From positions 38,821 to 96,189 of the forward strand of contig NZ_JAUOQM010000028.1 of assembly GCF_030547685.1 (NCBI RefSeq): a DNA stretch of 57,369 nt, in the 5' to 3' direction. Numbering within the stretch: position 1 is the first letter of the stretch; every line of letters begins with the position of its first letter. Below the pieces are notes generated by a model that ran no database searches, was not told the DNA's origin, and saw only the letters and a list, made by a program, of their open reading frames with translations. Made by a program: the position numbers and the translations under genes. Of this stretch, positions 21,220-49,194 are shown piece by piece. The stretch comes from Gilvimarinus sp. 2_MG-2023. Its GTDB lineage: Bacteria; Pseudomonadota; Gammaproteobacteria; Pseudomonadales; Cellvibrionaceae.

Positions 21220-22449
21220 TTAATCGTCGTAGCGTTTAAAAATTAACGAGGTGTTAATACCGCCGAAGGCAAAATTATTGGACATCATGTGCACGCTTGA
21301 TTGGGTGAGAACGCCGCCCATGACATACTGCAAAGGGGCGCAGTTGGCATCGACTTGGTTTAAATTTAACGTTGGCATTACCCAGCCATCGCGCATCATG
21401 TGTAGACAGGCCCAGGCTTCGATTGCACCACCTGCGCCCAAAGAGTGCCCCAAGTGGCCCTTGCAACTGCTGACCGGCACACGATCTTGAAACACTGCAT
21501 AAGAGGCTTGGCTTTCGGTGACATCGCCATATTGGGTGGCAGTGCCGTGGGCGTTTAGATAATCAATATCTGAGGTTTGTAAACCCGCATCTTTCAAAGC
21601 AAGCTGCATGGTAACTTGCATGCTGTCGCTATCGGGTTGAGTGACGTGACCGCCATCGGAGTTGGTACCAAAACCAACTACTTCACCATAAATGTCTGCA
21701 CCGCGTGCCTGAGCATGTTCTAGTGATTCTAAAATCAAGCTGCCGGCGCCCTCGCCAATGACTAAACCATCGCGCTTTGCATCAAATGGGCTTGGGGTTT
21801 GGTTGGGGGTATCGTTTTTGGTGCTGGCCGAACGAAAGGTATCAAACACAGCGGCTTCGGTAGGACACAGCTCTTCGGCTCCACCGGCCAACATAATATC
21901 TTGCCGCCCACTGGCAATAGCCTCGTAAGCGTAACCAATGGCTTGACTGCCGGAAGTACAGGCCGAAGAGGTGGGATACACTCGCCCTTTAATTTCAAAA
22001 AACACACCGAGGTTAACCGCGGTGGTGTGGCTCATCATTTTGATATAAGTCGTGGCGGTAATACGGGTTAAATCGCGATCGGTGAGCATTTGTGCAAACT
22101 CGCGGGCGGCGTCGGTACTGCCAGTAGAGGAGCCATAGGCGATACCTGTGCGACCACTGGTTAGCAGTGGGTCATCTAATAAGCCCGCCATCAGCAATGC
22201 ATCGCGACTGGCCACGGTGGCCAATTGTGACACCCGCCCCATGCTGCGCATTTTTTTGCGGGGGTAATCCCCGGTCAGCTGAAAGCCATCCACCGGGCCA
22301 CCCAGCTGGGTGTTTAAGCCTTTAATATCGGCCCATTCGTGCATCACACGAATACCGCTGCGCCCTTGGTGCACCGCATCACTGAAGCTCGACCAATCAG
22401 AGCCCAGCGCAGTGACCGCACCGAGCCCAGTTACAACCACCCGAGTCAT
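21220..22449 (-). CDS. Beta-ketoacyl-ACP synthase of the APE operon (ApeR-like, copy 2)
   Basis: A 409-aa KAS I/II-type ketosynthase. The catalytic triad is complete: Cys164 in SSACTSG, His in NAHGTAT, and His in GHSLGA, with the C-terminal NFAFGGINTS loop. It is a close paralogue of the gene just upstream; they overlap by four bases (ATGA). In APE operons the last KS (ApeR) acts separately from the KS-CLF pair and is thought to help start or extend the chain (family knowledge). Having two such genes is unusual. It is the last gene of the 20-gene minus-strand operon. Confidence 0.9.
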   Translation of the reverse strand: MTRVVVTGLGAVTALGSDWSSFSDAVHQGRSGIRVMHEWADIKGLNTQLGGPVDGFQLTGDYPRKKMRSMGRVSQLATVASRDALLMAGLLDDPLLTSGRTGIAYGSSTGSTDAAREFAQMLTDRDLTRITATTYIKMMSHTTAVNLGVFFEIKGRVYPTSSACTSGSQAIGYAYEAIASGRQDIMLAGGAEELCPTEAAVFDTFRSASTKNDTPNQTPSPFDAKRDGLVIGEGAGSLILESLEHAQARGADIYGEVVGFGTNSDGGHVTQPDSDSMQVTMQLALKDAGLQTSDIDYLNAHGTATQYGDVTESQASYAVFQDRVPVSSCKGHLGHSLGAGGAIEAWACLHMMRDGWVMPTLNLNQVDANCAPLQYVMGGVLTQSSVHMMSNNFAFGGINTSLIFKRYDD

Positions 22450-23672
22450 GAGTCGCCGCGTTTAATAATCAGCGATGTATTAACCCCACCGAAAGCGAAG
22501 TTGTTGCTCATGGCATACTGACAATCCAGTTCGCGCCCCGCCCCTTGAATATAATCTAAAGGGGCGCAGTCGGGGTCGACTTCGGTTAAATTAATAGTGG
22601 GAGCAAACCAGCCCGTGTGCATCATCTCTAAGGTCATCCAAGCCTCCAGCGCGCCGCAAGCCCCCAAGGTATGGCCGATATAACTTTTCAGCGAGCTAAT
22701 CGGTTTGCCTTCACCCAGCACTTCACAGGTTGCCTGTGATTCGGCCACATCGCCCTTAGCGGTGGCGGTACCGTGGGCGTTGACATAACCTATATCGGCA
22801 GCGGTTAATTGTGCATCGTTTAGGGCGGTGCGCATGGCGCCAGCCATTGTTACGGCGCGAGGCTCGGTCACGTGGGCGCCGTCGGAGTTGGTGCCGTAGC
22901 CGACGATTTCACCCAGTATAGTCGCGCCGCGAGCTTTAGCGTGTTCGTACTCTTCCAAAATTAGGGAGCAGGCGCCTTCACCCAGAACTAAACCATCGCG
23001 ATTTTTATCGAACGGGCGAGGTGTTAGCTCGGGGGTATCGTTACTGGTACTGGTGGCAAACAGGGTATCAAATACCGCCACCGGGGTAACATGAAACTCT
23101 TCGGCACCACCGGCAATCATGATGTCTTGCATGCCGTATTTAATCGCCTCGTAAGCATAACCAATGCCTTGGCTGCCCGAGGTACACGCTGAGGCCGTGG
23201 GAATAATGCGGCCAGTCATACCAAAGAACAGACCGATATTCACTGTAGCTGTGTGCGTCATAGTGCGCAGGTAGGTAGAGGCAGTGATATCCACAGTGGT
23301 GTTATCACTCACCACGCGGGTCAGCGCGGGTACATCGCCCGGCGTACCAATGCAGGAGCCGTATGAGACACCCGCGCGGCCGCTTTTGAGCAGTGGATCA
23401 TCGAGTAGACCGGCCATCGTCAAGGCGCGTTCGCTGGCATCTACCGCCATCACCGACACCCGCCCCATAGAGCGCAGTTTTTTGCGCGGGTAGTGTTTAG
23501 GCGTGGCAAACTCAACGGGGGCACCCAGGCGGGTGTTGAGCCCTTCGATCGCATCCCACTCACTAAACACTTGCACCTTGTTTTGGCCGGCCCGCAGGTC
23601 CGCCTCTACGCTAGGCCAGTCATTGCCCAGGGCGCTAACCGCACCCACTCCGGTAATTGCCACTCTACGCAT
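22446..23672 (-). CDS. apeR: Beta-ketoacyl-ACP synthase of the APE operon (ApeR-like, copy 1)
   Basis: A 408-aa condensing enzyme with intact Cys163 (TASACTSG), NAHGTAT His and GHTLGA His. It is about as long as, and clearly paralogous to, 21220-22449, sharing RSMGRVS, a run from AGLLDDPLL and the C-terminal NNFAFGG loop. It overlaps the ketoreductase stop by one base (TAATG), indicating translational coupling. Its position after KS, dehydratase and ketoreductase fits ApeR. Which of the two copies is the orthologue cannot be decided by eye. Confidence 0.9.
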   Translation of the reverse strand: MRRVAITGVGAVSALGNDWPSVEADLRAGQNKVQVFSEWDAIEGLNTRLGAPVEFATPKHYPRKKLRSMGRVSVMAVDASERALTMAGLLDDPLLKSGRAGVSYGSCIGTPGDVPALTRVVSDNTTVDITASTYLRTMTHTATVNIGLFFGMTGRIIPTASACTSGSQGIGYAYEAIKYGMQDIMIAGGAEEFHVTPVAVFDTLFATSTSNDTPELTPRPFDKNRDGLVLGEGACSLILEEYEHAKARGATILGEIVGYGTNSDGAHVTEPRAVTMAGAMRTALNDAQLTAADIGYVNAHGTATAKGDVAESQATCEVLGEGKPISSLKSYIGHTLGACGALEAWMTLEMMHTGWFAPTINLTEVDPDCAPLDYIQGAGRELDCQYAMSNNFAFGGVNTSLIIKRGDS

Positions 23673-24397
23673 TACAACATTCCACCGTTAACAGAGATCA
23701 CCTGACGAGTGATGTAGGAGGCCGAATCACTCATTAAATAAGACACTAAGCTTGCCACTTCGTCAGCTTGACCAAAGCGTCGAAGTGGAATCATTTTTTT
23801 CGCTTCGTCGGCAAAAACTTCATCAACCATATCGGTTTCAATAATTCCCGGCGCCACACAGTTAACGGTAATTTTGCGTTTGCCTAACTCTAGCGCCAAA
23901 GATTTAGTGGCACCAATCAAGCCGGCTTTGGTAGCGCTGTAATTAACTTGGCCGCGGTTGCCCGCCAAGCCCGCTACGGAAGATAACGTCACAATACGCC
24001 CACCTTGGCGCGCTTGCACCATCGGCATTACCAATGGCTGCAAAATATTGTAAAAGCCGTCGAGGTTGGTGTGAATCACACTGTCCCAATCATCTTCCGA
24101 CATCGCCGGAAAGGCGTTGTCGCGAGTTATACCAGCATTGCATACCACGCCATAAAAAGCGCCCTTGCGCTCGACATACTCGGTTAACGCTGCGCGCGCC
24201 GCACTGCGATCGGCCACATCAAAACTGAGCAGTTCGCTGTCGCGCCCCAGCGCTTGGATTTCGGCGACTACTTCGCGCCCTTTTTCCAAACTACCACGGC
24301 AATGGACAACCACATCAAAACCTTCGCGTGCCAGTTGCAACGCAATTGCGCGGCCAATGCCGCGACTTGAGCCAGTCACGAGAATCTGACGAGCCAT
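23672..24397 (-). CDS. apeQ: 3-ketoacyl-ACP reductase (FabG-like), ApeQ
   Basis: A 241-aa short-chain dehydrogenase with NADPH-binding TGSSRGIG (about 8-15), NAG at about 90, a catalytic Ser in the TLSSVAG segment, and YSATK (Tyr at about 153). It should reduce the ketoacyl-ACP made in each round of polyene chain extension. It is the only ketoreductase in the whole locus. It starts 9 bp after the ApeP-like dehydratase stop. Confidence 0.93.
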   Translation of the reverse strand: MARQILVTGSSRGIGRAIALQLAREGFDVVVHCRGSLEKGREVVAEIQALGRDSELLSFDVADRSAARAALTEYVERKGAFYGVVCNAGITRDNAFPAMSEDDWDSVIHTNLDGFYNILQPLVMPMVQARQGGRIVTLSSVAGLAGNRGQVNYSATKAGLIGATKSLALELGKRKITVNCVAPGIIETDMVDEVFADEAKKMIPLRRFGQADEVASLVSYLMSDSASYITRQVISVNGGML

Positions 24398-24406: not shown

Positions 24407-24895
24407 CTAAAGGGCGCCCTGCCCCGCTTGAGCAACGTGCTGCGGATCGCTTAACCGCAAATAGTCTTCGAGGCTATCGGGACGAAAGGCGGAAAACTCC
24501 CCTTCACTGACCGTTTGCCACTCGTCGTTTACACACTGCGTAATTTTTCCGTGAAAGGCCACAATCGGCCCGTCGATTAAATTAACATCCACCCGCACCT
24601 GCAGCATCGCTCCCAAACTAAAGCTCGCAACGCTCGACTGCACCGAGCGGGCGCTAATTAAAAAGGCCGGTTGTGCGGCCTCGGCCGCTGATTCGCTCAA
24701 CCCCACCCACACCGCAGCGGTTTGCGCCATATATTCAACGCTACACCAGGCGGGCACGCCGCCGCGAGCCGCATCGTAAAGCGCATTATCCTGTTCAATG
24801 GTGGCACCGGTTAAGACCCAATCCGGCGCATGGTCAAGCACTTGGTCAATCAGCCTGAACGGCGGCCGGTGCGGTATTAATGTATCAAGATTCAT
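24407..24895 (-). CDS. apeP: Hotdog-fold 3-hydroxyacyl-ACP dehydratase, ApeP-like
   Basis: A 162-aa single hotdog protein opening with LIPHRPPFRLIDQVLDH. In APE systems ApeP pairs with the small ApeI to dehydrate the hydroxyacyl-ACP, and the SVEYMAQTAAVW helix is typical. I start it at ATG 24895, which overlaps the KS stop by 11 bases; the reading up to 24940 lies wholly within the KS gene. It belongs to the main operon. Confidence 0.87.
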   Translation of the reverse strand: MNLDTLIPHRPPFRLIDQVLDHAPDWVLTGATIEQDNALYDAARGGVPAWCSVEYMAQTAAVWVGLSESAAEAAQPAFLISARSVQSSVASFSLGAMLQVRVDVNLIDGPIVAFHGKITQCVNDEWQTVSEGEFSAFRPDSLEDYLRLSDPQHVAQAGQGAL

Positions 24896-26078
24896 TCTGC
24901 ACGCCCAAAATGATTGCGGCGTTATTGCCACCAAAAGCAAACGAATTGCTTAAATAACAGCGCCGCTTCTCGGCACTGACACAATCACCTACCTGCACGA
25001 GATTAAGATTGGGCAGCGCCGGGTCGTAATGGCCATGGTAGCAGTGAGGCGGTAGTTTACCACTGTCGTTTAGCAGTGCTAACCACATCAGCCCCGCTTC
25101 GGTGGCCCCTGCCGCGCCCAAGGTATGACCCAACTGGCCTTTACTGCTGCTGACCTTAGGGCCGTGGGGAAACAAACGCGACACTACGGCCGACTCCATC
25201 GCATCGTTGAGCGGTGTCCCGGTGCCGTGCAGGTTGATATAGTTAATGTCGGCTGGGGCTAACTGCGCCTGCTCCAAGGCCGTTTTAATGGCCGCTTCGG
25301 CGCCACTGCCAGCAGGATCGGGCGCCGATATATGGTGAGCATCGGATGAGGCTCCCGCGCCTAACAACTGAATACGCCCCCCAATGGGCTCGCGAGTGAC
25401 CATAAAAAACGCCGCCGCCTCGCCGATATTAATACCCGTGCGCCCTTCCCCAAACGGGGTGCAGGGCCCTTCACTGACCGAGTCCAATGCGGCAAATCCG
25501 TTGACGGTCAACCGGCACAAGCTGTCGGCGCCACCGGCAATAACCGCATCGGCCATGTCGGTTGCCAGTAAGCGTTGCGCCGACGCTAAGGCATGGCCGC
25601 TGGAAGAACAAGCGGTGGATAAGGTATAAGCAACCCCTTGCAGTTGGCAGTAGTCGGCTATTAGTTCAGCTAGATTGCCAATTTCTTGGGCACGATAATG
25701 ATAGTGCTCTGGCCGTTCACCCTCGCCCTGCCAGTGCGCCACTGCGTCTTCGCCTTCAGCAATACCCGAGGTACTGGTACCCGCAACCACCGCAATGCGA
25801 GCACTGGGGTAACGTTTTTTAACCTGATCAATACTGCTTTGTATTTGGGCAATAGCGGTTAAGGCCAGCTGCGCATTGCGACTGCGATAGAGCGCCAGGC
25901 GCTCGGGCACGGTCAGCAAAGGAGCCGTCACTGGCGCCGTGTAAGTGGGCTTACCCGGCACCCAATCGCACGGGGCCAAGCCGAGATCGCCGGCAAACAG
26001 GGCCTGGGCCACACTGGCTTTGTCGTGGCCCAGAGCATTGATCAAACCCAAATCCGCTAAATAGCACGCTGGCATCAT
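24885..26078 (-). CDS. apeO: Ketosynthase of the APE KS-CLF pair, ApeO
   Basis: A 397-aa ketosynthase with Cys157 in STACSSSG, NLHGTGT and GHTLGAAGA His residues, and the C-terminal NSFAFGGNNAA loop. In characterised APE pathways ApeO forms a heterodimer with the chain-length factor ApeC (here 38125-38856) and makes the conjugated chain on an ACP. It overlaps the DUF3261 lipoprotein stop by four bases. Confidence 0.91.
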   Translation of the reverse strand: MMPACYLADLGLINALGHDKASVAQALFAGDLGLAPCDWVPGKPTYTAPVTAPLLTVPERLALYRSRNAQLALTAIAQIQSSIDQVKKRYPSARIAVVAGTSTSGIAEGEDAVAHWQGEGERPEHYHYRAQEIGNLAELIADYCQLQGVAYTLSTACSSSGHALASAQRLLATDMADAVIAGGADSLCRLTVNGFAALDSVSEGPCTPFGEGRTGINIGEAAAFFMVTREPIGGRIQLLGAGASSDAHHISAPDPAGSGAEAAIKTALEQAQLAPADINYINLHGTGTPLNDAMESAVVSRLFPHGPKVSSSKGQLGHTLGAAGATEAGLMWLALLNDSGKLPPHCYHGHYDPALPNLNLVQVGDCVSAEKRRCYLSNSFAFGGNNAAIILGVQNES

Positions 26079-26569
26079 GGAGAGTTGGTCCGTATTTGTA
26101 ATGTTATATTTTTAAGGGGCAAAGCGATGGTATTTGGTGCCTCTGGCTGCCACTGCCATACCGTTCGCGATGACGACTGCAGTTGCGTGCCCTGCCCTGT
26201 GTGCTGCAAGTTTAAACCCGCGGCACTGACACAGGATGGGTTTAGGCTGTCGCGTATTAGCCACCAATAAAGTGCACTGACTAAAGTTTCGGGGTCAAGT
26301 CCGCGGTAAAACGGTTGCGTTTCAAGCGCGACTTTTTGCTTTGCCAGGCGGGCATTAAATTGCAAACTGCCCAGTGTATCGATCCCAATAAATCGCACGG
26401 CATCCGCTTCGAGCTGCACTCTCACCACTAAAGGGGCTGAGCCGAGCGATTGAGACACGAGTAACGTCGCAGCCGCTGGTGCTGGGCAAGAACCATTATG
26501 GGGTGCGACCAAGGGGCTGGCACAGCCAGCCAACACTATTAACAGTCCGAGAGCAATAAGCTTTTGCAT
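26075..26569 (-). CDS. DUF3261 lipoprotein of APE operons
   Basis: A 164-aa lipoprotein: hydrophobic signal and lipobox LAGC (Cys at about residue 16), then a beta-rich domain matching DUF3261, known from APE operons at this position (ApeN). It probably helps carry the lipid-linked pigment to the outer membrane together with the LolA-like protein and the MMPL exporter (inference). The start at 26569 overlaps the upstream stop as TAATG, giving translational coupling. Confidence 0.85.
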   Translation of the reverse strand: MQKLIALGLLIVLAGCASPLVAPHNGSCPAPAAATLLVSQSLGSAPLVVRVQLEADAVRFIGIDTLGSLQFNARLAKQKVALETQPFYRGLDPETLVSALYWWLIRDSLNPSCVSAAGLNLQHTGQGTQLQSSSRTVWQWQPEAPNTIALPLKNITLQIRTNSP

Positions 26570-27834
26570 TAGTCGCCTGACGAGCAAAACTCGGCCAAAG
26601 CGCCCATACGGCGACGCGGCTCAGCCACAAATGGGTTGTTTTCATCCCACGCGTAACCGGCCAAAATGGATGAGATCATTTCACGCACGCTGACCGATTG
26701 GTGCGGATAAAAAATCGTATCTTGAAATAGCCCTTCGTACCAAGCGTCGACAAATACCCGGAAAGTGTCCACCCCTTTGCGCAGCGGAATTTCGTAGTCG
26801 GCTTGCCAGTCTACGATTTCGCCTTCTAGCTGACGCGTTAACACATCGACAGCCATTGTCGCCGAACGCATGGCGATGGTGATACCGGAGGAAAATACTG
26901 GGTCGAGAAACTCGCCAGCATTACCCAACAAAGCGTAGTGATTGTTGGCCAAGTGCTTAACATTACAAGAGTAACCGGTGATATGGTTGGCATCATTATT
27001 CCACTCGGCACGATCTAGCATTTTGGCAAGCTCGGGCGCCTCGGCCACCATGGCCTGTAGCAACTCCATAGGCGTGTCTTTGCCGCGTTTTTTCAGTTTC
27101 TCTTCACTGGCAACTACTCCTAACGAACATTTACCGCCACTAAAAGGAATCAGCCAATACCAAATATCACGCTCTTGCGGATGAACTGTTACCAAGATTT
27201 TATTGCGATCAAAATCGCCGAAAGCAATGCCATCATTAATATGGGTAAATGCCGCTTGACGAACAGGAAAATCTGAAGGCTCCTCCAAATCAAGTAGGCC
27301 CGGCAACACGCGGCCAAAACCGCTGGCATCGAGCACAAAGCGACAATCGATGGTGGCAGTTTCACCTTCTGGGGTGGTGTAAGTTAGCGTATTGCCGCCG
27401 CCTTCGTGTAATTGACAGTCATTAATCACATGGCGGTAACGGATGTCCACACCCTGTTTTTGTGCTTCATCGGCCATAAGTTTGTCAAAATGTGCGCGCT
27501 CTACCTGAAAAGTAGTGCCGTGGCCCGGCGAGAATTTTTCTTCAAAATTGAAATAGGTATAGCGCTCGCCCCAAGCAAAAGCAGCGCCATTTTTAAACTG
27601 AAAACCGGCATCGCGAATGGCGGGCAAGAAACCCGCCTGCTCGATATATTCCATGCATTGTGGCAGCAAGCTTTCGCCGATAGAAAAGCGCGGAAACTGC
27701 TGTTTTTCAAACACAATAACGCTATAGCCTTTTTTGTTCAGCAGTGCCGAGGCGATAGCGCCAGACGGTCCCGCACCGATAATGACCACATCCACTTGCT
27801 TAGGCACAGCTGCCATATCCTTTCCCCATTTCAC
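26569..27834 (-). CDS. FAD-dependent oxidoreductase with halogenase motifs
   Basis: A 421-aa flavoprotein: Rossmann GAGPSG (20-25), GESLLP (53-58), Lys81 in FKNG at the place of the catalytic Lys of flavin-dependent halogenases, and WYWLIP (225-230), which fits the halogenase WxWxIP signature. Many APE operons encode a relative annotated only as an oxidoreductase. Xanthomonadins are brominated and some flexirubins chlorinated, so halogenation of the aryl head is plausible. Oxidation or hydroxylation remains possible. The start is either ATG 27834 (overlapping the exporter stop as ATGA) or ATG 27816, which has GGGGA upstream. Confidence 0.82.
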   Translation of the reverse strand: MKWGKDMAAVPKQVDVVIIGAGPSGAIASALLNKKGYSVIVFEKQQFPRFSIGESLLPQCMEYIEQAGFLPAIRDAGFQFKNGAAFAWGERYTYFNFEEKFSPGHGTTFQVERAHFDKLMADEAQKQGVDIRYRHVINDCQLHEGGGNTLTYTTPEGETATIDCRFVLDASGFGRVLPGLLDLEEPSDFPVRQAAFTHINDGIAFGDFDRNKILVTVHPQERDIWYWLIPFSGGKCSLGVVASEEKLKKRGKDTPMELLQAMVAEAPELAKMLDRAEWNNDANHITGYSCNVKHLANNHYALLGNAGEFLDPVFSSGITIAMRSATMAVDVLTRQLEGEIVDWQADYEIPLRKGVDTFRVFVDAWYEGLFQDTIFYPHQSVSVREMISSILAGYAWDENNPFVAEPRRRMGALAEFCSSGD

Positions 27835-30170: not shown

Positions 30171-30815
30171 TTACTCCTCGGCCTGTGCGGCGTACTGGAA
30201 TTGAATTCGGGTGTAATCGGCATTGGGTTCCTGCACGGTGACGTTGTGCAACCTGCCTTGCTCACCGGTAACGACAATCGCCGCAATGGCGCTTGCTAAA
30301 CGTTTATTATTAGGCAGCAAACGCAATTGCCATTGAGCATCCAACTCCGAGTGTGGTAGCTGTACGGTAAAAAAGGACTCTAAGCCTTTTAGTTGCAAAT
30401 CAAAAAGTTTGCCCACAATTTGAAAAAAACCATACACCGATGGTTCTTTGCGAGCGGTAATTTCGGTTTGCTCACCCTCTAGGGTGCGCATGATTGTGCC
30501 ATCGACAATACGGTAAAGCACGGCAAAAGGTTCTTGCACCGACCAAGTCAGATCACCATTCGTTTTTAAGTCGAAAGTGCCGGAAGAGACCAACGGTTCA
30601 TTCAAAATGGCCATATATTTATGTTGTTGCATTTGGCCGTGCACCGGTAAGGAGTTTGCCAGCTGAGCCGCCACGGACTGCAGATGTTTTTGATCATCTG
30701 CACTGCTGGCATTGCGCCATTTGCCATCAGCGGGGCCGTTGTCGGCACTGCTGCTGGCATCAGCCCAAGCGTTCACACACAAAAGACACAGTAGGCATAC
30801 ACTCAGCCATTTCAT
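30171..30815 (-). CDS. LolA-like periplasmic carrier of the APE operon
   Basis: A 214-aa exported protein: signal peptide MKWLSVCLLCLLCVNAWA cleaved near Asp, followed by an open beta-barrel LolA-type domain (QMQQHKYMAILNEPLVSSGTF and GDLTWSVQEPF strands, given as pieces). LolA carries lipoproteins through the periplasm; the APE homologue probably carries the pigment lipid. I chose ATG 30815 with AGAGG about 7 bases upstream over the GTG at 30833, which overlaps the previous stop. Confidence 0.85.
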   Translation of the reverse strand: MKWLSVCLLCLLCVNAWADASSSADNGPADGKWRNASSADDQKHLQSVAAQLANSLPVHGQMQQHKYMAILNEPLVSSGTFDLKTNGDLTWSVQEPFAVLYRIVDGTIMRTLEGEQTEITARKEPSVYGFFQIVGKLFDLQLKGLESFFTVQLPHSELDAQWQLRLLPNNKRLASAIAAIVVTGEQGRLHNVTVQEPNADYTRIQFQYAAQAEE

Positions 30816-30829
30816 CACTACACCTCTTT

Positions 30830-37105: not shown

Positions 37106-37363
37106 TTAGGCCTGTTGAGCCAAGACAAAGTCGCGCAAGCTGGCGACACTGCGAAAATGCTCTTTATTTTGCTCAGAGTTTGCGTCAATTTTAACATTAA
37201 AGCGCTTTTGTAAGGCCAAGCCGATCTCTAATGCGTCAATTGAATCCAACCCCAAGCCGTCGCCGAACAGTGGCGCTTCGGTGTCGATATCTTCGATAGT
37301 GATATCTTCGAGCTCCAGCTCTTCGATAATCATTGTTTTTATGTCGTGATCAAGATCAGTCAT
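37106..37363 (-). CDS. apeE: Acyl carrier protein, ApeE
   Basis: An 85-aa acidic ACP with attachment Ser in GLGLDSIDALEI (about residue 40). It overlaps the acyltransferase stop upstream by eight bases. In characterised APE clusters ApeE carries the growing aryl polyene chain. Confidence 0.93.
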   Translation of the reverse strand: MTDLDHDIKTMIIEELELEDITIEDIDTEAPLFGDGLGLDSIDALEIGLALQKRFNVKIDANSEQNKEHFRSVASLRDFVLAQQA

Positions 37364-41150: not shown

Positions 41151-41415
41151 CCCCGTCTCTGACGAATTAAAACTGCGACTAAAGCAAATTATCATTGAAG
41201 AGTGCGACAAAGATGAGCTGACGCCCGACGACATTGCCAACGATGAGCCCCTGCTCACTGGGGATTTGGATTTGGATTCGCTGGACGTACTGCAAATTTG
41301 TATGGCGGTTAAAAAGGAATACGGTGTGCGCATTGAGGGCAACACCGCGGCACGGCGTGCCCTGAAAGATATTGATGCACTGGCTCAAACCATTGCCGAC
41401 GCCACTGCCGAATGA
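41143..41415 (+). CDS. Third acyl carrier protein
   Basis: A 90-aa ACP with attachment Ser in GDLDLDSLDVLQI (about residue 44). It is distinct from the two APE ACPs and is encoded beside the second ketosynthase, overlapping the permease by eight and the KS by four bases. It probably carries the chain of the second PKS set. Confidence 0.91.
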   Translation: MVSPVSDELKLRLKQIIIEECDKDELTPDDIANDEPLLTGDLDLDSLDVLQICMAVKKEYGVRIEGNTAARRALKDIDALAQTIADATAE

Positions 41416-42581
41416 GTGTTTGCATTCGCCAACTAGCCGCCCATTGCAGCTTGGGGAGTGATTTATCCTCTTGCGTGGAGTCGCTCAGCCGCCTCGAGTT
41501 GCCCGCACCCGTAAAGCGCCATTTCGATTGCTCTCACGAACAAGTGGCTATTCCCTATTTCCGGATGCGCAATAAACCCAGCGGTGATTTTTATCAAATC
41601 CTGATCAACCGGCTCGCCAACTTGCTGGATCGCGCCGAATTAAATGCTGACGACCGTTTAGACACAGCACTGCTGATCGGCTCTTCATCTTTTGATGTGC
41701 ATATATCCGAGCAGCAATATCAGCAAGACCTCGCCAAACTCGGTGACCAGGCCGCCGTGTCGATGCCCATTGTCGGCTATGGCAAACTGGCCGAAACTTT
41801 CGGCGAAAGCTTGGGGCTTTCATCGCACCGCTACACATATTCAACCGCCTGCACATCCAGCGCCAACGCCCTGCTGTACGCCAAGCAGCTGATCGAGCAA
41901 GGGCAAGTAAAACACGCACTGGTGCTGGGACTAGAGCCGGAAAACAACACCAGCGTGCTCGGTTTTTACGGGCTGGGATTAATCTCACCCAGCGAGCAAA
42001 TGCACCCCTTTGACGACGATCGCGACGGGCTGGTATTGGGTGAAGCCTTAGGTGCGGCACTGTTAAGCGCGGCCGATGTTACCCCTGCCCCACAGCGACG
42101 CTTCACCTTGGCCGGCGGGGCCATTGGCACCGACAACCACAGCCTAACCGCCGCCCACACCAGCGGTTCGGAGATTGCCCGAGTCATTGATCAGGCGTTA
42201 CAGCAGGCGAAAATTTCGCCCGCCGATATACAGGCCATTAAAGCGCACGGCACCGCCTCATTAAAAAACGACGAGGCAGAAGCGGCCGCGCTCAATCGAA
42301 TTTTTGCTGGCGCCATTCCTCCCGCTTTCGCCCTTAAGCCCTATATTGGCCACACTTTGGGCGCCTGTGGCGCGCTGGAATTGGCGTTGACATTAGGCTG
42401 CTTGCAAACGGGCTACCTGCCGGCCACCCCCTCAGCTAAAGGCGATGGCGGCCTAGGGGTAAAACTGCTGCGGCAATTAAAACCCAGCCAGCCGGGGTAT
42501 TACCTACTCAATTGTTTTGCCTTTGGCGGTAATAACAATGCACTGATCATTCACGACCAAGGCGAGAAAGGCAGCGAGTGA
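41412..42581 (+). CDS. Second-set ketosynthase
   Basis: A 389-aa ketosynthase with catalytic Cys147 (STACTSS), His in KAHGTAS, His in GHTLGACGA, and the NCFAFGGNNNA loop. It resembles ApeO more than FabF in its loops. It is coupled to the ACP before it and to a Cys-less partner after it, mirroring the APE KS-CLF arrangement. Confidence 0.89.
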   Translation: MSVCIRQLAAHCSLGSDLSSCVESLSRLELPAPVKRHFDCSHEQVAIPYFRMRNKPSGDFYQILINRLANLLDRAELNADDRLDTALLIGSSSFDVHISEQQYQQDLAKLGDQAAVSMPIVGYGKLAETFGESLGLSSHRYTYSTACTSSANALLYAKQLIEQGQVKHALVLGLEPENNTSVLGFYGLGLISPSEQMHPFDDDRDGLVLGEALGAALLSAADVTPAPQRRFTLAGGAIGTDNHSLTAAHTSGSEIARVIDQALQQAKISPADIQAIKAHGTASLKNDEAEAAALNRIFAGAIPPAFALKPYIGHTLGACGALELALTLGCLQTGYLPATPSAKGDGGLGVKLLRQLKPSQPGYYLLNCFAFGGNNNALIIHDQGEKGSE

Positions 42582-43438
42582 TGTATATTGAAAATAGTTA
42601 TTCTCTGCTGCATAAAGTAGACGCCCAAAATCCTGTGCTGGCCGATGCGCAAGCGGTCATACAACAGTGGCACGGTAAACGTATTCGCCGAATCGATCGC
42701 TATATTCAGCTATGTGTAGCCGGAGGTTTAGCCTGCGCCGGTGAGCGCAAGCTGCCGAGCAACACCGGAGTGTATCTCTCTACCCGTTGCGGTGCTGTGT
42801 CTACCTCGTCGCAAGTCATGCACACCATAGAGAGTGAAAATGAGCTGCCCAAGCCTTTGCATTTTGTGAACACGCTCGGCAATTCAGCCGGTTTTTACTT
42901 AACCCAACTGTTGCAGCTCACCGGCACCGCTCTGGTGTTGTCGAAAGAAACGCTGTCGTTCGAAGCTGCGCTCTTACATGCCATGATGGACATCAATTCA
43001 GGGCTTTGTGATTACGCCTTGGTGGGCACCTTCGACGAAGTAGCCCTACCCGTTGATCACCAACTGCAAAGACTAAACGCCGCACCGAATGCACCGCATT
43101 TATTTGAAGGAACTCACTGGCTACTACTGAGCAAATCAGCAACCAACACGGCCATTGGCAGTCCGGTTTACGCGCGCTCGCCAAGTGAATTACTGCAAAA
43201 AATCAAGTGGCAAGGGAGCGATGTACAACTAGGATTTGAGCCCTGTGAAGAAGAGCGTCACCAGCTAGAAGGGCAAACTATTGAGGTGTTTCAGAACGAA
43301 GCCTTAGCAGCGGGAACTGTTCCCCATGGCGCCTTTGGTGCCGCCTCGCTCTTGGACGCGGCCGGGAAAAACACCCCCCTATTGCACATCAATCGGACCG
43401 AGCCGAATCACTATTGCGGGGTAGCGATCAACGCTTAA
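42581..43438 (+). CDS. KS-like protein without catalytic Cys (possible chain-length factor)
   Basis: A 285-aa protein with a ketosynthase-like N-terminal half. Where the active Cys would stand it reads LVLSKETLSFEAAL, with Glu-Thr instead, and there is no His-motif half. The HFVNTLGNSAGFYLTQLLQL segment fits the KS core. It follows the ketosynthase with a one-base overlap (TGATG), so the two are probably a KS-CLF pair. Function inferred from position. Confidence 0.7.
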   Translation: MYIENSYSLLHKVDAQNPVLADAQAVIQQWHGKRIRRIDRYIQLCVAGGLACAGERKLPSNTGVYLSTRCGAVSTSSQVMHTIESENELPKPLHFVNTLGNSAGFYLTQLLQLTGTALVLSKETLSFEAALLHAMMDINSGLCDYALVGTFDEVALPVDHQLQRLNAAPNAPHLFEGTHWLLLSKSATNTAIGSPVYARSPSELLQKIKWQGSDVQLGFEPCEEERHQLEGQTIEVFQNEALAAGTVPHGAFGAASLLDAAGKNTPLLHINRTEPNHYCGVAINA

Positions 43439-43553: not shown

Positions 43554-44540
43554 TTATTTACGACACCACGCTTTCAGTTGCTGCCATACCTGTTTTTCCT
43601 GTGCCGCACACTGGCGCAACTTATCGGAAAGTACCGCCAGACGAATCGGCTCTTTCGATTTGCACTCTTTAACCACCATCAGCGCAAACTCACGCCATGT
43701 ATCGCCGACATCGGTCATCGTTTTCGAGGCCTCCGCCAAGACATCATCGCTCAGTAACTTGGCCGACTCCTGCAAAAAGGAAGCGTAGACAAAACGAAAC
43801 CCCGCCCCGCCAGTCCCTATCTCCTCTTGCATGCGAACGATGTGCCCGAGATACAGTCGCTTATCTTTTTCACTACCTTTCAGTTTATCGATTTTTTTCG
43901 CCAGATAATGAATACCGCGAATACCAATCACCGGCAGAGGCGCACCGGTCATAACTTTAACGTTTTTGGCAATCGCCTCGCGAATAACCCGGGGGTAGTC
44001 GATACTCTCCGGCACAGACTCGATGGTGTACATCAAGCCCTTCGGGGCTAATGGGCCACGCACAAAGCGCGCTTTGTTTAAATCGCGCGGGGCAATTTCC
44101 ATCGGCTCTTCGAACACCGGGTCGCTGATTTGATAAACATCATCGCGCTTGCCGTAAACCAACAAATTGTGGGCGTTAAAATGAAAACGCATCTCTTCGG
44201 GGAAATACGGCAAATAATAAACCGAGGTTTGCAGCCCCACTAAAATGTTCTGCCCCACCAAATCGTCCAGCGCGTTAGCGGCTGTCATTGGGTCTTTGAA
44301 TTTATGGAATTTCACTCCTACCCCTAAGCGCTTGCACAAGCCTTTAATGATGGCACGCGGCGGCAGCCGGTAAGCAATCAAGGGTTGGCCACCGAGCTTA
44401 ACGATGGGGATATAGGCAAACGCCAATGCGTTGGCCAGGCCAAAAGCCATGGGCTCACTCAAGGGCAGTCCGTGATGGCTCAGCAGTGATGAGATAACAC
44501 CGCTTTCACAGTGGGCCGACTGATTGTGGGAAAATGTCAT
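43554..44540 (-). CDS. BtrH-type acyltransferase (BtrH N-terminal and DUF4872 domains)
   Basis: A 328-aa protein opening with HCESGVISSLL (Cys11), the Cys-containing motif of BtrH, which moves an acyl chain from an ACP to an amine in butirosin synthesis. A DUF4872-like C-terminal half follows. Here it sits next to DarB/DarA-like genes, so it could move the aryl polyene from its ACP to the resorcinol hydroxyl and form the ester of a flexirubin-type product (inference). Its start overlaps the next gene's stop by four bases. Confidence 0.78.
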   Translation of the reverse strand: MTFSHNQSAHCESGVISSLLSHHGLPLSEPMAFGLANALAFAYIPIVKLGGQPLIAYRLPPRAIIKGLCKRLGVGVKFHKFKDPMTAANALDDLVGQNILVGLQTSVYYLPYFPEEMRFHFNAHNLLVYGKRDDVYQISDPVFEEPMEIAPRDLNKARFVRGPLAPKGLMYTIESVPESIDYPRVIREAIAKNVKVMTGAPLPVIGIRGIHYLAKKIDKLKGSEKDKRLYLGHIVRMQEEIGTGGAGFRFVYASFLQESAKLLSDDVLAEASKTMTDVGDTWREFALMVVKECKSKEPIRLAVLSDKLRQCAAQEKQVWQQLKAWCRK

Positions 44541-44944
44541 TCAGGTTTATCCGGCAAAGATTGTATTTGTTCTATGGGGCGATCCATGGCCTCGGCGTAG
44601 CGCTGTAAAACGCTATCGCTTAATCGGGCAAAGTGTCGGGGGTTGAAGTGGCGCATCACCCGCCAGCGCCATAAGCCGGTGAGCTGACACAATAGCGGTA
44701 AGTCCATACGACAGTCGTACATATGAAAATACAGCGGGGATTTTCGTCCGGCTAACACCTCTGCGTGAGCCTCTTGGGCCCACAACTCAAACTGAGCCAC
44801 CGCATCGCGGGTAGCAGTGGCCTCTACTTCCCAGCCGGTACTCTGCACACCTTGATATTCACCGTCCTGCCCTTGGGCATACAACAGTTTTTTATGTCCG
44901 GCGTAGGTACTGCTCTTATCCTGGGGTACTTCATCGGCACGCAC
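44537..44944 (-). CDS. Hypothetical protein, 135 aa, in the resorcinol block
   Basis: A soluble protein with a Cys-containing MYDCRMDLPLL segment and a Trp/Arg/His-rich LWRWRVMRHFNPRHF segment. I do not recognise the family. The start is GTG 44944 with AAGGAG six bases upstream. It is held between the BtrH-like gene (four-base overlap) and the DarB-like gene (27 bp), so it is probably part of the same pathway step. Confidence 0.72.
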   Translation of the reverse strand: MRADEVPQDKSSTYAGHKKLLYAQGQDGEYQGVQSTGWEVEATATRDAVAQFELWAQEAHAEVLAGRKSPLYFHMYDCRMDLPLLCQLTGLWRWRVMRHFNPRHFARLSDSVLQRYAEAMDRPIEQIQSLPDKPE

Positions 44945-44971: not shown

Positions 44972-46123
44972 TTAAACGACTTCCAGCAACATATAAGATA
45001 CCGAGAAGCGACCGCTTTCAGGGATATAGCACAGTAGTTTCTGGCCGCGCTTTAATTGACCACTTTTCAACAGATCATCAATCATAATGTAAATGGACGC
45101 AGCACCTGTGTTGCCTTTTTCCGGCAAGTTGGTAAACCAGCGCTCCTGATCAATACCAAAATCGGCGTTTTTCATGCATTGGTCTAAACGATCACGGAAG
45201 TAATGCGATGAGTAGTGCGGCAAAAAGTAATCGATTTGATCGGGGGTAATGCCGTATTTGTCACGCAATTTCGGCAGAGTTTTTTCCGCCGTATAGGGCA
45301 TGATATGTTCGTTCAGCTGCTTAACATCTTGCTTGACCGACATAAAGCTATCGGCGGCGGCCTCGGCGCGGCTAACCGCCTGCCAACCGGTTAACGAGCC
45401 GTCTTCTTCTTTGCGACCGCCGGCATACATACAGGCAGTCATTTCATTGGCGTAAGACAGCACGTCTATCCACTCAACTTTCAATGCTAACTTATCCGTC
45501 GGTTTTTCACTTTGCAGCACCATCGCCCCGGCACCGTCGGATAACATCCAGCGCAGAAAATCTTTCTCGAATGCAATCTCTGGGTTGGCTTCCAGCTCGG
45601 CAATTCTCTGTTCCAGTTCCGGCGAGAAGTTATCCGCCTTCATGGTATATGAGGCCGCTTCGGATGCGGCGGCCACAGCGGAGGAGTGAACGCCCGCTGC
45701 AACACTTAAAAAGGCGTACTTGAGCGCCGTCATACCGCTGACACACACACCTGAGGTGGTGGCCACTTCGCAGGGCGGGCTACCCAATTCGCCGTGCACC
45801 ATAGCGGCGTGCCCCGGCATTAACTGATCGGGGATGCTGGTGGCGGCCGCCAGGCAGGTAACAGACTCAAGCGGCACATCATCCGCCAGAGCTTGCTTTA
45901 CTGCGTGAGCGCAAAGTTCCGCATTGGTATAGTTATGCTTACCGGTTTGCGGATCAATCGCGTAGTAGCGAGTTTTAATTTGGTTGCTGCGTAAAATTAT
46001 TTTGCGCGAGCGTGAAGCCCTTGCGCCAACCTGGCCCAAGAGTTTTTCCATATCATCGTTGCCCACCGGTTCGTTGGGGAGAAAGCTGCCGGTGTGCGTT
46101 ATATAAACTGTATTGGCTGACAT
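44972..46123 (-). CDS. darB: KAS III-like condensing enzyme, DarB-like
   Basis: A 383-aa KAS III-fold protein with catalytic Cys127 in TSGVCVSGMTA, a His in LPHYSSHYF, and Asn in EKGNTGAASIY, the Cys-His-Asn triad. Length and motifs fit DarB, which joins two beta-keto acyl chains in dialkylresorcinol synthesis. DarA-like 46149-47090 lies 25 bp upstream on the same strand, which supports the call. Confidence 0.87.
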   Translation of the reverse strand: MSANTVYITHTGSFLPNEPVGNDDMEKLLGQVGARASRSRKIILRSNQIKTRYYAIDPQTGKHNYTNAELCAHAVKQALADDVPLESVTCLAAATSIPDQLMPGHAAMVHGELGSPPCEVATTSGVCVSGMTALKYAFLSVAAGVHSSAVAAASEAASYTMKADNFSPELEQRIAELEANPEIAFEKDFLRWMLSDGAGAMVLQSEKPTDKLALKVEWIDVLSYANEMTACMYAGGRKEEDGSLTGWQAVSRAEAAADSFMSVKQDVKQLNEHIMPYTAEKTLPKLRDKYGITPDQIDYFLPHYSSHYFRDRLDQCMKNADFGIDQERWFTNLPEKGNTGAASIYIMIDDLLKSGQLKRGQKLLCYIPESGRFSVSYMLLEVV

Positions 46124-46148: not shown

Positions 46149-47090
46149 CTAGTCTTCGCCCGAAGGCCAGGCATAATATTGTTTTTGTTGAGCGATGCGC
46201 TTTTTCATAAACGGGGCAAAAGCGAATTTAACCAGTGTGGTTATCGGCACTACCGTTAGCAACATCAACACCAAAAACGCGACATAAAACATCGCCAACA
46301 GCCGCCGCACCTTTGAGGTATACGAGCCATTGGCCAAAAATAATTTTCCCCACAGGTAAAAACTGCGAGTCACCAGTTTTTCACTGGCAATTAATTTATC
46401 GTTGACTTTTACCGCGGCAAGTCCCTGCCAAAGCGTTTCATCCAGCGGCTGATTTTCATCAAACCGCTGTAATATAGCGCGCCCCAGGCGCGAAGCCTCG
46501 GCGACGTCCTGATCGCTCACACCGGCGGGCGGCACCAAGCCAAACCAATGCGGCCCTTTGCGCCCAGTTAGAACCCACAACGGAGTCGCAAAAAAGCTGG
46601 CCACAGAACCGGCGGCATCCACTAACACGGCATTTCCCACCAGCTTAGCACCTAAATTTTGCAGATGCGTTTTAACCTTTTCCTGCGCTTGCAGCCACAT
46701 ATTGCGACAGGCGATTACCGTTACAACCGGCTTATTGGCCAACAATTTAGCGGCCAATTCGCTCTGCAGAAAAGATGAAATCGGGATGGATGGCGCCAAG
46801 TACCACACTTGGTAGGCCAGAACGACTAAATCATAGTCATCGGCCAGATGCTCGGTCGCCATGTCCAGCTCACAGGGTACCTGATGCGCCGATTCCGGAA
46901 ACACGTTAATAAAGCGCAACATTGGCCACGGAAAGGGAAAAGCCTGCGCAGGTTGCACATTAAGAAAGTCGACCGTAACCCCTGGCGCCTGCTGTAAAGG
47001 CTCTACCACTGATTTCGCGACTCGATCTAGCTGTCCGGTTTGCGAGTAGTGTACGACCAACACCCGCTTACTTGTTTTATCTTCTGCCAA
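46149..47090 (-). CDS. darA: Dialkylresorcinol condensing enzyme, DarA-like
   Basis: A 313-aa protein with a flavodoxin-like opening (LVVHYSQTGQL), AFPFPWPMLRFINVFPES in the middle, and two membrane helices near the C terminus. This matches DarA-type proteins of resorcinol and flexirubin clusters. The start is most likely TTG 47090, with AGGGAGG four bases upstream; the frame runs open to 47345, but that part would overlap the divergent DUF2141 gene. DarA works with DarB to make the resorcinol ring. Confidence 0.83.
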   Translation of the reverse strand: MAEDKTSKRVLVVHYSQTGQLDRVAKSVVEPLQQAPGVTVDFLNVQPAQAFPFPWPMLRFINVFPESAHQVPCELDMATEHLADDYDLVVLAYQVWYLAPSIPISSFLQSELAAKLLANKPVVTVIACRNMWLQAQEKVKTHLQNLGAKLVGNAVLVDAAGSVASFFATPLWVLTGRKGPHWFGLVPPAGVSDQDVAEASRLGRAILQRFDENQPLDETLWQGLAAVKVNDKLIASEKLVTRSFYLWGKLFLANGSYTSKVRRLLAMFYVAFLVLMLLTVVPITTLVKFAFAPFMKKRIAQQKQYYAWPSGED

Positions 47091-47183: not shown

Positions 47184-47666
47184 ATGGGTTCTATGTGTTT
47201 TCGCTATATTCTGCTTTTCTTGCTGGTTTTGGCCCAGGGCGCGGCCGCACACCCTTACACGCTTGTGATCAAAGACAATCAATTGCCGGGCGCTGCGCTC
47301 TATATTGCCGTCTACTCGGATGCGGCAACCGGTTGGGATAACCACCCCGACCTAGAGCTTAAATTCACCTTGCCGGACAGCAAAGAAGTTCACTACCCAC
47401 TGGATCTACCCAGCGGCCACTACGCCCTGCGCGCTTTTGTGGATTTGAATGACAATCAGACGCTAGACACCAATAATAAAAACCGACCCCGCGAGCCTTT
47501 TAGTACCAGCATAGGATCGGGACGCAAGCGGCCCAGCCCCAGCTTTACTAAGAGTATTCGACCATTAACGGCCAACTCACCGGTCATTGAACTTAAATTG
47601 CGCTACCCAAAAGCGACGCAAGACACTGACCCGCCGGCCGCCTCACAAACGAGCAGACCGAATTAA
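47184..47666 (+). CDS. DUF2141 exported protein
   Basis: A 160-aa protein with a signal peptide (about 1-23, ending AAAHP) and a beta-sandwich domain carrying the HYALRAFVDLNDNQTLDTN motif of DUF2141. Members are exported and of unknown function; the repeated Asp/Asn residues suggest calcium binding. It stands alone within the resorcinol block, and a role there is not shown. Confidence 0.8.
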   Translation: MGSMCFRYILLFLLVLAQGAAAHPYTLVIKDNQLPGAALYIAVYSDAATGWDNHPDLELKFTLPDSKEVHYPLDLPSGHYALRAFVDLNDNQTLDTNNKNRPREPFSTSIGSGRKRPSPSFTKSIRPLTANSPVIELKLRYPKATQDTDPPAASQTSRPN

Positions 47667-47721: not shown

Positions 47722-48027
47722 TTAAGACTCACTGTCAGCAGAGGTTGCGGTGAAATTGGCACTGAGGCGGCATTCTCCCGCCACTTGCAGCTGCACCTTA
47801 CCCTTGGGCCAGCGTGCGTCCTCCCACTGGATACTCACCGTATCGCCCGGAGTGACCGCCCCCAGAAATTTCACTTTGCTAAACTGCGGCATGCCTCCGC
47901 TAGGGTAACGCCGTTCAAACGCCTGATGAACAAGACTTAATAAATAGGCACCAGGCACTATCGGGCTATCGGGAAAATGCCCCTGAACACAGGGCAACTC
48001 GGCTGTTACAGTAAACTGGTCCGACAT
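47722..48027 (-). CDS. Second ApeI-like hotdog dehydratase
   Basis: A 101-aa single hotdog with VQGHFPDSPIVPGAYLL, the FabZ/ApeI catalytic His region. It is divergent from, and directly next to, an ApeP-like hotdog gene (48068), so the two could form a second dehydratase pair. Neither lies in the main operon. Confidence 0.83.
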   Translation of the reverse strand: MSDQFTVTAELPCVQGHFPDSPIVPGAYLLSLVHQAFERRYPSGGMPQFSKVKFLGAVTPGDTVSIQWEDARWPKGKVQLQVAGECRLSANFTATSADSES

Positions 48028-48067
48028 GGTTTATCATACTGCCATTGAATTATTGAAGCTAAACGCT

Positions 48068-48499
48068 ATGGAATTATCCGCAAACATCGAACAACTTTTA
48101 CCCCACGCGCCCCCCATGGTGCTGCTGGATTCTATCATTGAGCACAGCGAGACGCACATACTCTGCCAATCCAACTCGCACTTGGCCCCGGACAACCCCC
48201 TGCGCACCGGCGATACACTTTCTGTTTACGCCGGTATTGAATACGCCGCGCAAGCGATGGCGGTACACACCCGCCTCAGCGGCCAAAATACAGCGGATGC
48301 AGCCCCGCGCAAAGGGGTCATTGCCGTCGCCTCTAAGCTGCAGGCTGCAGTCAAAACCCTGGATGCAATCCACTACCCGTTGGACATTCGCACCGATATC
48401 ATCGCCCAGACCGCCGACAGCACACTTTGCAGCTTCACCCTAGAGGCAAAAGGTACAGTCATTCTGCAGGGGCAGCTAACCGCTATGCTAGTAGCTTAA
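48068..48499 (+). CDS. Second ApeP-like hotdog dehydratase
   Basis: A 143-aa hotdog protein opening with LLPHAPPMVLLDSIIEH and containing IEYAAQAMAVHTRLSG, matching the LIPHRPP and VEYMAQTAAVW motifs of the operon's ApeP-like protein. I start it at ATG 48068; the frame upstream to 48026 would overlap the divergent gene. The phosphopantetheinyl transferase gene follows 2 bp after its stop. Confidence 0.83.
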   Translation: MELSANIEQLLPHAPPMVLLDSIIEHSETHILCQSNSHLAPDNPLRTGDTLSVYAGIEYAAQAMAVHTRLSGQNTADAAPRKGVIAVASKLQAAVKTLDAIHYPLDIRTDIIAQTADSTLCSFTLEAKGTVILQGQLTAMLVA

Positions 48500-48501
48500 T
48501 A

Positions 48502-49194
48502 ATGACCACTCACTTCCACCTGGTGGACCTCAGGAAAGTACCCACCTGGGAGGAGGCCCCCCTGCACTTAAAGGGTCGGCTATGCCCCCGGCAACTAGAG
48601 CGAGCTCAAGCACTGCGCCGCCCCGACATCCGGCAGCAGCGCCTACAACAACAACTGGCCCTATTTGACCTACTAGATTACTACCTACCCGAAGACGTCC
48701 GGCCTATTAGTATTAACCGCAGCGAAGCGGGTAAACCTGCACTGACTCATCACCCCAAGTGGCACTTTAACATTAGCCACAGCGGTCACTGGCTGGCATT
48801 GCTGCTCAGCGATGCTTGTGCGGTGGGAGTCGATTTGGAAGTGCCAAGCAAACCCCGCCCGCTATTGGCCATTGCTCAGCAGTACTTCAGTGAACAGGAG
48901 TTTGCTCGCCTGCAAACACTAGAAAGGGATCAATTACAGAGCGAGTTTTATCGGCTCTGGACTCTCAAGGAGGCTTTTTTTAAAGCGCGCGGTACGGGTA
49001 TTGCCGAGGGGCTAGGGAAAATTGATTTTACTCACAGCCAAACCCCGCAATCTGAACAAAACTGGCCGCTGCAACACTGGCAGTTTTATCACCAAAGCTT
49101 AACCCACGAGGACGAAACCCTGTACCTGGCCGCGGTGTTCGGCCGGGCCGAGACACTGCCCAAGCTGCGGACTGATTACCCTATTGCAGGGTAA
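48502..49194 (+). CDS. Sfp-type 4'-phosphopantetheinyl transferase
   Basis: A 230-aa enzyme that adds the phosphopantetheine arm to ACPs. Motifs: FNISHSGHW, GVDLE (metal-binding Asp and Glu), and FYRLWTLKEAFFK with the WxxKEA signature. It starts 2 bp after the dehydratase gene, so the two are probably cotranscribed. It should activate all three ACPs of the locus. Confidence 0.92.
   Translation: MTTHFHLVDLRKVPTWEEAPLHLKGRLCPRQLERAQALRRPDIRQQRLQQQLALFDLLDYYLPEDVRPISINRSEAGKPALTHHPKWHFNISHSGHWLALLLSDACAVGVDLEVPSKPRPLLAIAQQYFSEQEFARLQTLERDQLQSEFYRLWTLKEAFFKARGTGIAEGLGKIDFTHSQTPQSEQNWPLQHWQFYHQSLTHEDETLYLAAVFGRAETLPKLRTDYPIAG

Follow-up and report, generated by a model that had tools for sequence, protein, structure and literature searches.

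A separable dialkylresorcinol cassette at an aryl polyene locus of Gilvimarinus, with DarH as the candidate joining enzyme

A 57 kb stretch of DNA (the window) from the 3.76 Mb, 99.8% complete genome of Gilvimarinus sp. 2_MG-2023 carries, between positions 21220 and 49194, an aryl polyene (APE) operon and a dialkylresorcinol (DAR) gene set, identified by family profile matches and by position. The DAR genes form one cassette that runs from an ATP-binding cassette (ABC) ATPase to a DUF2141 protein (39088-47666) and is missing from two congeners that keep the APE operon. Judged from its genes, the locus probably makes a flexirubin-like pigment of the outer envelope, an aryl polyene carboxylic acid ester-linked to a 2,5-dialkylresorcinol. 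The best candidate within the cassette for the ester-forming step, the transfer of the polyene acyl group onto the resorcinol, is DarH, a BtrH-type protein with a predicted acyltransferase fold.

The open reading frame list places 33 genes in this region. The minus-strand run from 38856 to 21220 follows the apeC-to-apeR order of the published E. coli gene table, with ApeO/ApeC, ApeQ, ApeI/P, two acyl carrier proteins (ACPs) and ApeH present and ApeG, ApeM and ApeN assigned by position; added within it are an aromatic ammonia-lyase, a flavin adenine dinucleotide (FAD) enzyme and a second ApeR copy. Divergent from apeC lie the ABC ATPase, a permease, an ACP, a ketosynthase (KS) and a chain-length factor (CLF)-like protein, followed by DarH, DarG, DarB and DarA on the minus strand. 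The DUF2141 protein, two further dehydratases and a phosphopantetheinyl transferase (PPTase) follow darA in window coordinates. Profile scans of the genes from 20406 to 49194 revealed no ApeA, no methyltransferase (ApeB included) and no chorismatase, the rest of the genome not having been searched for the last. An earlier note, made from the letters alone, had read the region as an APE-DAR hybrid locus in a Cellvibrionaceae-like host, and both statements hold. The genes it listed are present, the APE half in E. coli order, and the host is Gilvimarinus-like by lineage label and by DarH kinship, the nearest named locus being that of Gilvimarinus polysaccharolyticus YN3 (among the best 80 of at least 565 stretches with DarH relatives). 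Its list lacked the ammonia-lyase, the halogenase-like FAD enzyme, DarG and the DUF2141 protein.

The boundaries of the cassette are visible where it is absent. In a genus sample of eight genomes, the window genome included, DarH occurs in six and is absent from G004 and G036, both of which have the APE marker, PF13723. G004 retains the whole ape operon from apeR2 to apeC, lyase and FAD enzyme included, followed after about 100 bases by the dehydratase pair and the PPTase. G036 has the same arrangement with a gap of about 150 bases, and apeD and the GT2-LpxL genes are retained in both as in the window. The second dehydratase pair and the PPTase had been candidates for DAR genes and were rejected, since both are kept in the two DAR-less congeners. 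The DAR half that the earlier note described thus stands for the DarA/DarB-like, BtrH-like and ABC genes and loses the two dehydratases and the PPTase to the APE locus.

The position of the cassette is shared well outside the genus. In wider samples of the family (120 genomes) and the class (369 genomes), apeC adjoins the ABC ATPase in nine of the 14 other family DarH loci, three other genera included, and outside the family in G407 of the class sample. Of the 18 class DarH genomes, the loci of 16 and of the window were compared for gene order, G387 being left out. Five congeners keep the order of the window, as do members of three further genera. In a tree built from ApeC, ApeD and ACP, G036 groups with G054 and G081 (92%) and G004 with G075 (89%); the RpoB tree returns the same groups with 99% and 100% support. 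The cassette was probably lost twice, independently. Two losses are the simplest account, since G004 and G036 stand apart on both trees and outgroup genera carry the cassette at the corresponding position; alternatively, it may have been gained there more than once. The DAR tree (DarB, DarH and DarG) places only G066 differently from the APE tree, with 73% support in the APE tree and 100% in the DAR tree, so that the disagreement is not weak on both sides.

The two halves are also coupled across genomes. With DarB called by NF005293 (cut-off 450) and DarH by NF053550 (cut-off 300), the class sample contains PF13723 in 87 genomes, DarB above cut-off in 21 and DarH above cut-off in 18. The marker is present in every one of the DarB genomes and every one of the DarH genomes, always at 84 bits or more (Fisher p ~9e-15 for DarB, a value that overstates the strength of the association, the genomes being related). 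In the family, DarH and DarB above cut-off occur in one and the same set of 15 genomes, each of which belongs to the 64 with PF13723. Four of the 15 carry the DAR genes and the marker on separate contigs. For two of these, G005 and G102, the contigs involved are short, and the split may be an assembly gap; the DAR genes of G014 and G049 sit far inside contigs of 728 and 891 kb that lack the marker, and the association therefore does not need linkage. The view of the DAR half as a chance neighbor was rejected, as co-occurrence holds also where the halves are unlinked.

DarB-like proteins below the cut-off served as a control: PF13723 accompanies 14 of 25 in the family, against 64 of 120 overall, and none of four in the class. 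The family set left out a fragment in G110 (119 bits) and weaker matches. These proteins were rejected as DAR enzymes, DarA, DarG and DarH being missing at all five loci inspected. That the halves act together, which the earlier note drew from adjacency, is strengthened by the co-occurrence, by APE and DAR trees that differ in the place of one genome and by the predicted fold of DarH.

DarG and DarB both adjoin DarH in all 30 fetched loci. Of 80 named loci, the best of at least 565, 78 have DarG, 75 DarB and 72 DarA, with several of the absences located at contig ends, and PF13723 is found in 72 of the 80 genomes (45/50 and 27/30), six of these matches scoring below 60 bits. PF13723 does not mark E. 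coli-type APE genes exclusively, as it is also matched by Variovorax and Rhodocyclales relatives of the published xanthomonadin-type producers; it was matched in one of 14 control genomes, Bacteroides ihuae.

The case for DarH as joining enzyme rests on its predicted fold and on invariant residues. An alignment of 31 DarH proteins shows C11, H120, H124 and D140 to be invariant. The AlphaFold2 model (mean pLDDT 91.2, pTM 0.90) was compared with solved structures by Foldseek, and the top 19 hits are all to AziU2-U3, CtaG and CcbD (E at most 1.6e-6, template modeling (TM) score 0.58-0.77); PCAT1 transporters come next, at E 4e-4 and weaker and TM below 0.4. Entry titles among these matches name CtaG variants C11A, H128A and D144N, a CtaG-PHBA complex, and CcbD together with a PCP domain. 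The mutated residues of CtaG, C11, H128 and D144, correspond in order to C11, H124 and D140 of DarH, with a 16-residue gap between His and Asp in both. Known enzymes with this fold use acyl groups bound to carrier proteins. CtaG, CcbD and AziU3 share 11-16% identity with DarH, and their substrates are other compounds, as judged in part from entry titles. The match to the BtrH_N domain PF14399 (160 bits), the invariant Cys-His-Asp and the predicted fold together place DarH among BtrH-type proteins, and the last two make it the best candidate for joining the halves.

DarB carries Cys-His-Asn, with C127, H303 and N338 invariant in 21 proteins, and lies beside DarA; it scores 495 bits against the narrower resorcinol DarB model NF053539 (NCBI type 'exception'), below the cut-off of 550. 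DarA passes no family model, weak flavodoxin-like matches (FMN_red, Flavodoxin) falling below cut-off. Its name comes from position, as it adjoins DarB in 29 of the 30 DarH loci fetched; in the remaining locus, a contig ends at DarB. DarA also lies beside DarB in three bare darAB pairs and in none of five loci of sub-cut-off DarB-like genes. A plasmid search with DarA returned only three Streptomyces sequences (NZ_CP108315.1, NZ_CP109562.1 and NZ_CP108465.1; 32-33% identity), annotated hypothetical. DarG is modeled as a Cro/C1-type helix-turn-helix preceded by a hairpin (pLDDT 82, pTM 0.65), its best solved fold match being the weak one to NGO0477 (E 3.6e-3); sequence searches against solved structures and Pfam found nothing useful. 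W94 and H99, around the would-be recognition helix of this model, are invariant across distant Proteobacteria, a conservation that would be unusual for a regulator.

The locus contains two KS/CLF-type pairs: the cassette KS keeps Cys-His-His beside a Cys-less neighbor, and ApeC is likewise Cys-less. Expressing darB and darA in a foreign host is reported to yield a dialkylresorcinol (PMC3992019), so the cassette ACP, KS and CLF probably do something other than make the resorcinol. They may hand over or finish the polyene.

These parts suggest a pathway. The ammonia-lyase and the AMP ligase would supply a hydroxycinnamate-type or related aryl starter, which ApeO/ApeC with ApeQ, ApeI/ApeP and the ACPs would extend to the polyene; the FAD enzyme may halogenate or oxidize the ring. 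DarB would condense two fatty acyl thioesters and DarA would aromatize the product to the resorcinol. Through Cys11-His124-Asp140, DarH would then move the polyene acyl group from its carrier protein to a resorcinol hydroxyl, and the cassette ABC exporter and the LolA/RND system would carry the product outward.

Several findings weigh against this pathway. PF13723 was not found in eight of the 80 named DarH genomes, all of them metagenome-assembled genomes (MAGs). G223, G317 and G340 hold DarA, DarB and PF13723 with no DarH match; here darAB is a bare pair with no ABC genes, ACP, KS, DarG or DarH beside it, in assemblies 85, 96 and 82% complete. Three class genomes have sub-cut-off DarH-like matches (126, 103 and 23 bits), and one of the three has PF13723. 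Five named loci lack a local DarB: two of these genomes had none at E 1e-40, another had a truncated sub-cut-off DarB, and the remaining two have a match above cut-off on some contig. DarH was found in none of the 14 control genomes, two of which have a strong DarB match (1e-60), although one of these two, Bacteroides ihuae, also has PF13723; Bacteroidota may thus join the halves differently, and the DarH rule may not reach there. Among the solved relatives of DarH, the known products are amides or an aziridine rather than esters, and a sequence search of DarH against solved structures did not find CtaG, CcbD or AziU3. The donor could also be the cassette's own ACP, bearing a different acyl group.

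Other arrangements of these genes were seen in named loci. L161, L163 and L134, in MAGs labeled Syntrophaceae, Deltaproteobacteria and Desulfocapsa, have DarG-DarH pairs with no DarB nearby, which in L161 and L163 stand beside ketosynthases and an acyltransferase; there the pair may serve another acyl transfer. L067, L068 and L069 have bare darA-darB pairs that lack the ABC genes, ACP, KS, DarG and DarH, with PF13723 elsewhere in the genome. By eye, the neighbor of the pair in L067 and in L069 is a similar protein, putatively secreted or located in the outer membrane.

The chief alternative is that the locus makes two separate products, an E. coli-type APE lipid and a dialkylresorcinol that stays free and leaves through the ABC transporter, with DarH catalyzing another acyl transfer, for example onto the resorcinol from the cassette ACP. 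The APE loci that stand alone in G004 and G036, where the APE half exists without DAR genes, are compatible with this, as are the ACP, KS and CLF that the cassette has of its own and the bare darAB pairs in three PF13723-positive genomes without DarH. Free resorcinols, however, would not require the APE marker, and none of the 21 class DarB genomes lacks it. Moreover, free DAR was not detected in Azoarcus, which has this dar set, and a polyene-DAR ester was proposed there from mass spectrometry (PMC3949708). Two separate products are therefore unlikely next to the ester-linked pigment. It is very improbable that the locus has partly decayed or lies silent and so yields no hybrid: no expression or pigment data were found for the strain and the start codon of DarA is unclear, but all reading frames are open, active-site residues are kept and gene order is held in the five congeners and three further genera.

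The starter and tailoring enzymes of the APE half bear on what kind of ring the pigment would carry. The genome has no PF00221 match other than the ammonia-lyase, whose gene is part of the operon; this weakens its reading as a stray histidine-degradation gene. It scores 351 bits against the FlxA tyrosine ammonia-lyase equivalog, whose cut-off is 700, and a selectivity motif for such lyases, matched in just three of 12 proteins, was not used. The substrate of such lyases cannot be predicted from sequence (PMC3992019). The nearest solved structure to the FAD enzyme is 3nix ('Flavoprotein/dehydrogenase'), followed by halogenases. Of 14 relatives, three of them distant, 13 keep its WxWxIP motif, which is that of flavin-dependent halogenases. 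Motif and kinship alike point to the halogenases, and a ring-halogenated pigment in this marine host is possible. At the far end of the operon, the tandem ApeR-like ketosynthases (21220-23672) both keep Cys-His-His and are likewise paired in G004 and G036. Table 1 lists the genes of the locus.

Table 1. Genes of the APE-DAR locus, in window coordinates, with the basis of each assignment (bits and cut-offs are those of the named family models).
Feature	Coordinates	Strand	Basis
ApeR-like ketosynthase, copy 2	21220..22449	-	NF006587 646 bits, cut-off 470; Cys-His-His kept
ApeR-like ketosynthase, copy 1	22446..23672	-	NF006587 674 bits, cut-off 470; Cys-His-His kept
ApeQ ketoreductase	23672..24397	-	NF004200 and TIGR01831 above cut-off
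ApeP dehydratase	24407..24940	-	PF22817 above cut-off
ApeO ketosynthase	24885..26078	-	NF006618 476 bits, cut-off 407
Small lipoprotein-like open reading frame (ORF; ApeN position)	26075..26587	-	Position; no family above cut-off
FAD enzyme, halogenase kin	26569..27834	-	PF04820 above cut-off; WYWLIP, FLDPVFSSG motifs
RND/MMPL exporter (ApeM position)	27831..30164	-	Position; HpnN/MMPL weak, below cut-off; no Pfam match
LolA-like carrier (ApeL)	30171..30833	-	PF19574 barely above cut-off
Thioesterase (ApeK)	30830..31291	-	PF13279
Aromatic amino acid ammonia-lyase, probable starter-unit enzyme	31284..32840	-	PF00221 549 bits; Ala-Ser-Gly of MIO group
LpxL-like acyltransferase (part of ApeJ in E. 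coli)	32830..33807	-	PF03279
GT2 glycosyltransferase (part of ApeJ in E. coli)	33795..34586	-	PF00535
ApeI dehydratase	34544..34897	-	PF22818
AMP ligase (ApeH)	34897..36276	-	PF00501
Membrane protein (ApeG position)	36273..36830	-	Position; no family above cut-off
Acyl carrier protein (ApeF)	36830..37078	-	PF00550
Acyl carrier protein (ApeE)	37106..37363	-	PF00550
Lysophospholipid-type acyltransferase (ApeD)	37356..38132	-	PF01553
ApeC chain-length factor	38125..38856	-	PF13723 192 bits; no active-site Cys
DAR cassette: ABC ATPase	39088..39990	+	PF00005; absent at APE loci of G004, G036
DAR cassette: ABC permease	39987..41150	+	PF12698
DAR cassette: acyl carrier protein (DarC)	41143..41415	+	PF00550
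DAR cassette: ketosynthase (DarJ)	41412..42581	+	PF00109, PF02801; Cys-His-His
DAR cassette: CLF-like protein (darK position)	42578..43438	+	PF00109 slightly below cut-off; no Cys
DAR cassette: DarH, BtrH-type acyltransferase	43554..44540	-	NF053550 484 bits, cut-off 300; PF14399 160 bits
DAR cassette: DarG, predicted Cro/C1-type helix-turn-helix fold	44537..44944	-	NF053536 168 bits, cut-off 70
DAR cassette: DarB resorcinol-forming ketosynthase III	44972..46123	-	NF005293 593 bits, cut-off 450
DAR cassette: DarA, flavodoxin-like aromatase, start uncertain	46149..47087	-	FMN_red, Flavodoxin below cut-off; adjoins darB
DAR cassette: DUF2141 protein, signal-like start	47184..47666	+	PF09912 above cut-off; goes missing along with cassette
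Second ApeI/FabA-like dehydratase, APE locus	47722..48027	-	PF07977 barely above cut-off; retained in DAR-less congeners
Second ApeP-like dehydratase, APE locus	48026..48499	+	PF22817 below cut-off; retained in DAR-less congeners
Phosphopantetheinyl transferase, APE locus	48502..49194 (ORF 48427-49194, start uncertain)	+	PF01648; retained in DAR-less congeners

Among known systems, the E. coli CFT073 APE cluster has the same order as the window, C-D-E-F-G-H-I-J-K-L-M-N-O-P-Q-R (PMC8253772), to which the window adds the ammonia-lyase, the FAD enzyme, the second ApeR, the second dehydratase pair, the PPTase and the DAR cassette. Azoarcus sp. BH72 makes arcuflavin, a hybrid of polyene and resorcinol whose ester was proposed from mass spectrometry and feeding (PMC3949708). 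As described there, the dar set of this strain shares with the window darA, darB, a hypothetical darD, darE (annotated as a BtrH-like peptidase), the ABC ATPase and permease, an ACP and a KS; darD and darE correspond by position to DarG and DarH of NCBIfam. With darK taken as the CLF by position, the window cassette contains the genes of the Azoarcus set apart from a PilT/Prevent-host-death pair. The polyene genes differ as well: those of Azoarcus are xanthomonadin-type with a chorismatase starter, at two loci away from dar (PMC3949708), whereas in the window the polyene genes follow the E. coli order, include an ammonia-lyase and lie to either side of the cassette. The pigment of Azoarcus did not change color with alkali (PMC3949708), and the potassium hydroxide test for flexirubins is therefore not decisive.

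The flexirubin genes of Chitinophaga pinensis and Flavobacterium johnsoniae share with the window the ammonia-lyase and AMP ligase, DarA/DarB, and the union of polyene and resorcinol (PMC3992019). Against the flexirubin equivalogs, the window ketoreductase scores 291 bits for FlxB (cut-off 340) and DarG 128 bits for NF053545 (cut-off 170), both below threshold, and DarG matches the broader NF053536. For the joining step in Chitinophaga, Schoner et al. suggested FlxW, a ligase-like protein (PMC3992019). The portions of PMC3949708 and PMC3992019 consulted do not demonstrate the joining enzyme of flexirubin-like pigments, and a search for literature linking flexirubin with BtrH or DarH found only the Azoarcus paper (PMC3949708).

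Hybrid loci of this kind are already known and widespread, and the earlier note's suggestion of a pigment outside the usual hosts does not survive. Such clusters were reported across Proteobacteria by Schoner et al. in 2014 (PMC3949708). In at least one of the hybrid APE-DAR types V1-V3 of marine Pseudomonas, a DAR cluster is joined to an APE cluster like that of E. coli and V. fischeri (PMC10165715), hybrid APE-DAR clusters are also recorded in Pseudomonas by antiSMASH labels (PMC8704066), and Pseudoalteromonas distincta has a resorcinol cluster inside an APE cluster (PMC9966250). Teredinibacter and other Cellvibrionales symbionts have a terpene-arylpolyene cluster family described without resorcinol (PMC7329324). 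The best 80 of at least 565 DarH relatives include Pseudomonas, Vibrio, Neisseria, Variovorax, Sulfurimonas and others, and Pseudomonas loci with the same DAR genes are among the named ones. Gilvimarinus was not mentioned among the matches listed in the literature search for prior work. New here are the cassette boundary, together with its empty site, the coupling of the halves across genomes and the argument for DarH.

A broader model, to which we give about even chances, has DarH joining aryl polyene to dialkylresorcinol across Proteobacteria, with the cassette ACP, KS and CLF as a hand-over station for the polyene. The cassette would be dropped while the APE pigment is kept, switching the host between two pigment types, and in this genus the FAD enzyme may halogenate the ring. 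The distribution of DarH, its predicted fold and its invariant Cys-His-Asp make it a direct target for knockout, and congeners that carry the cassette can be set against those whose corresponding site is empty, a natural comparison for learning what the resorcinol contributes to an APE pigment.

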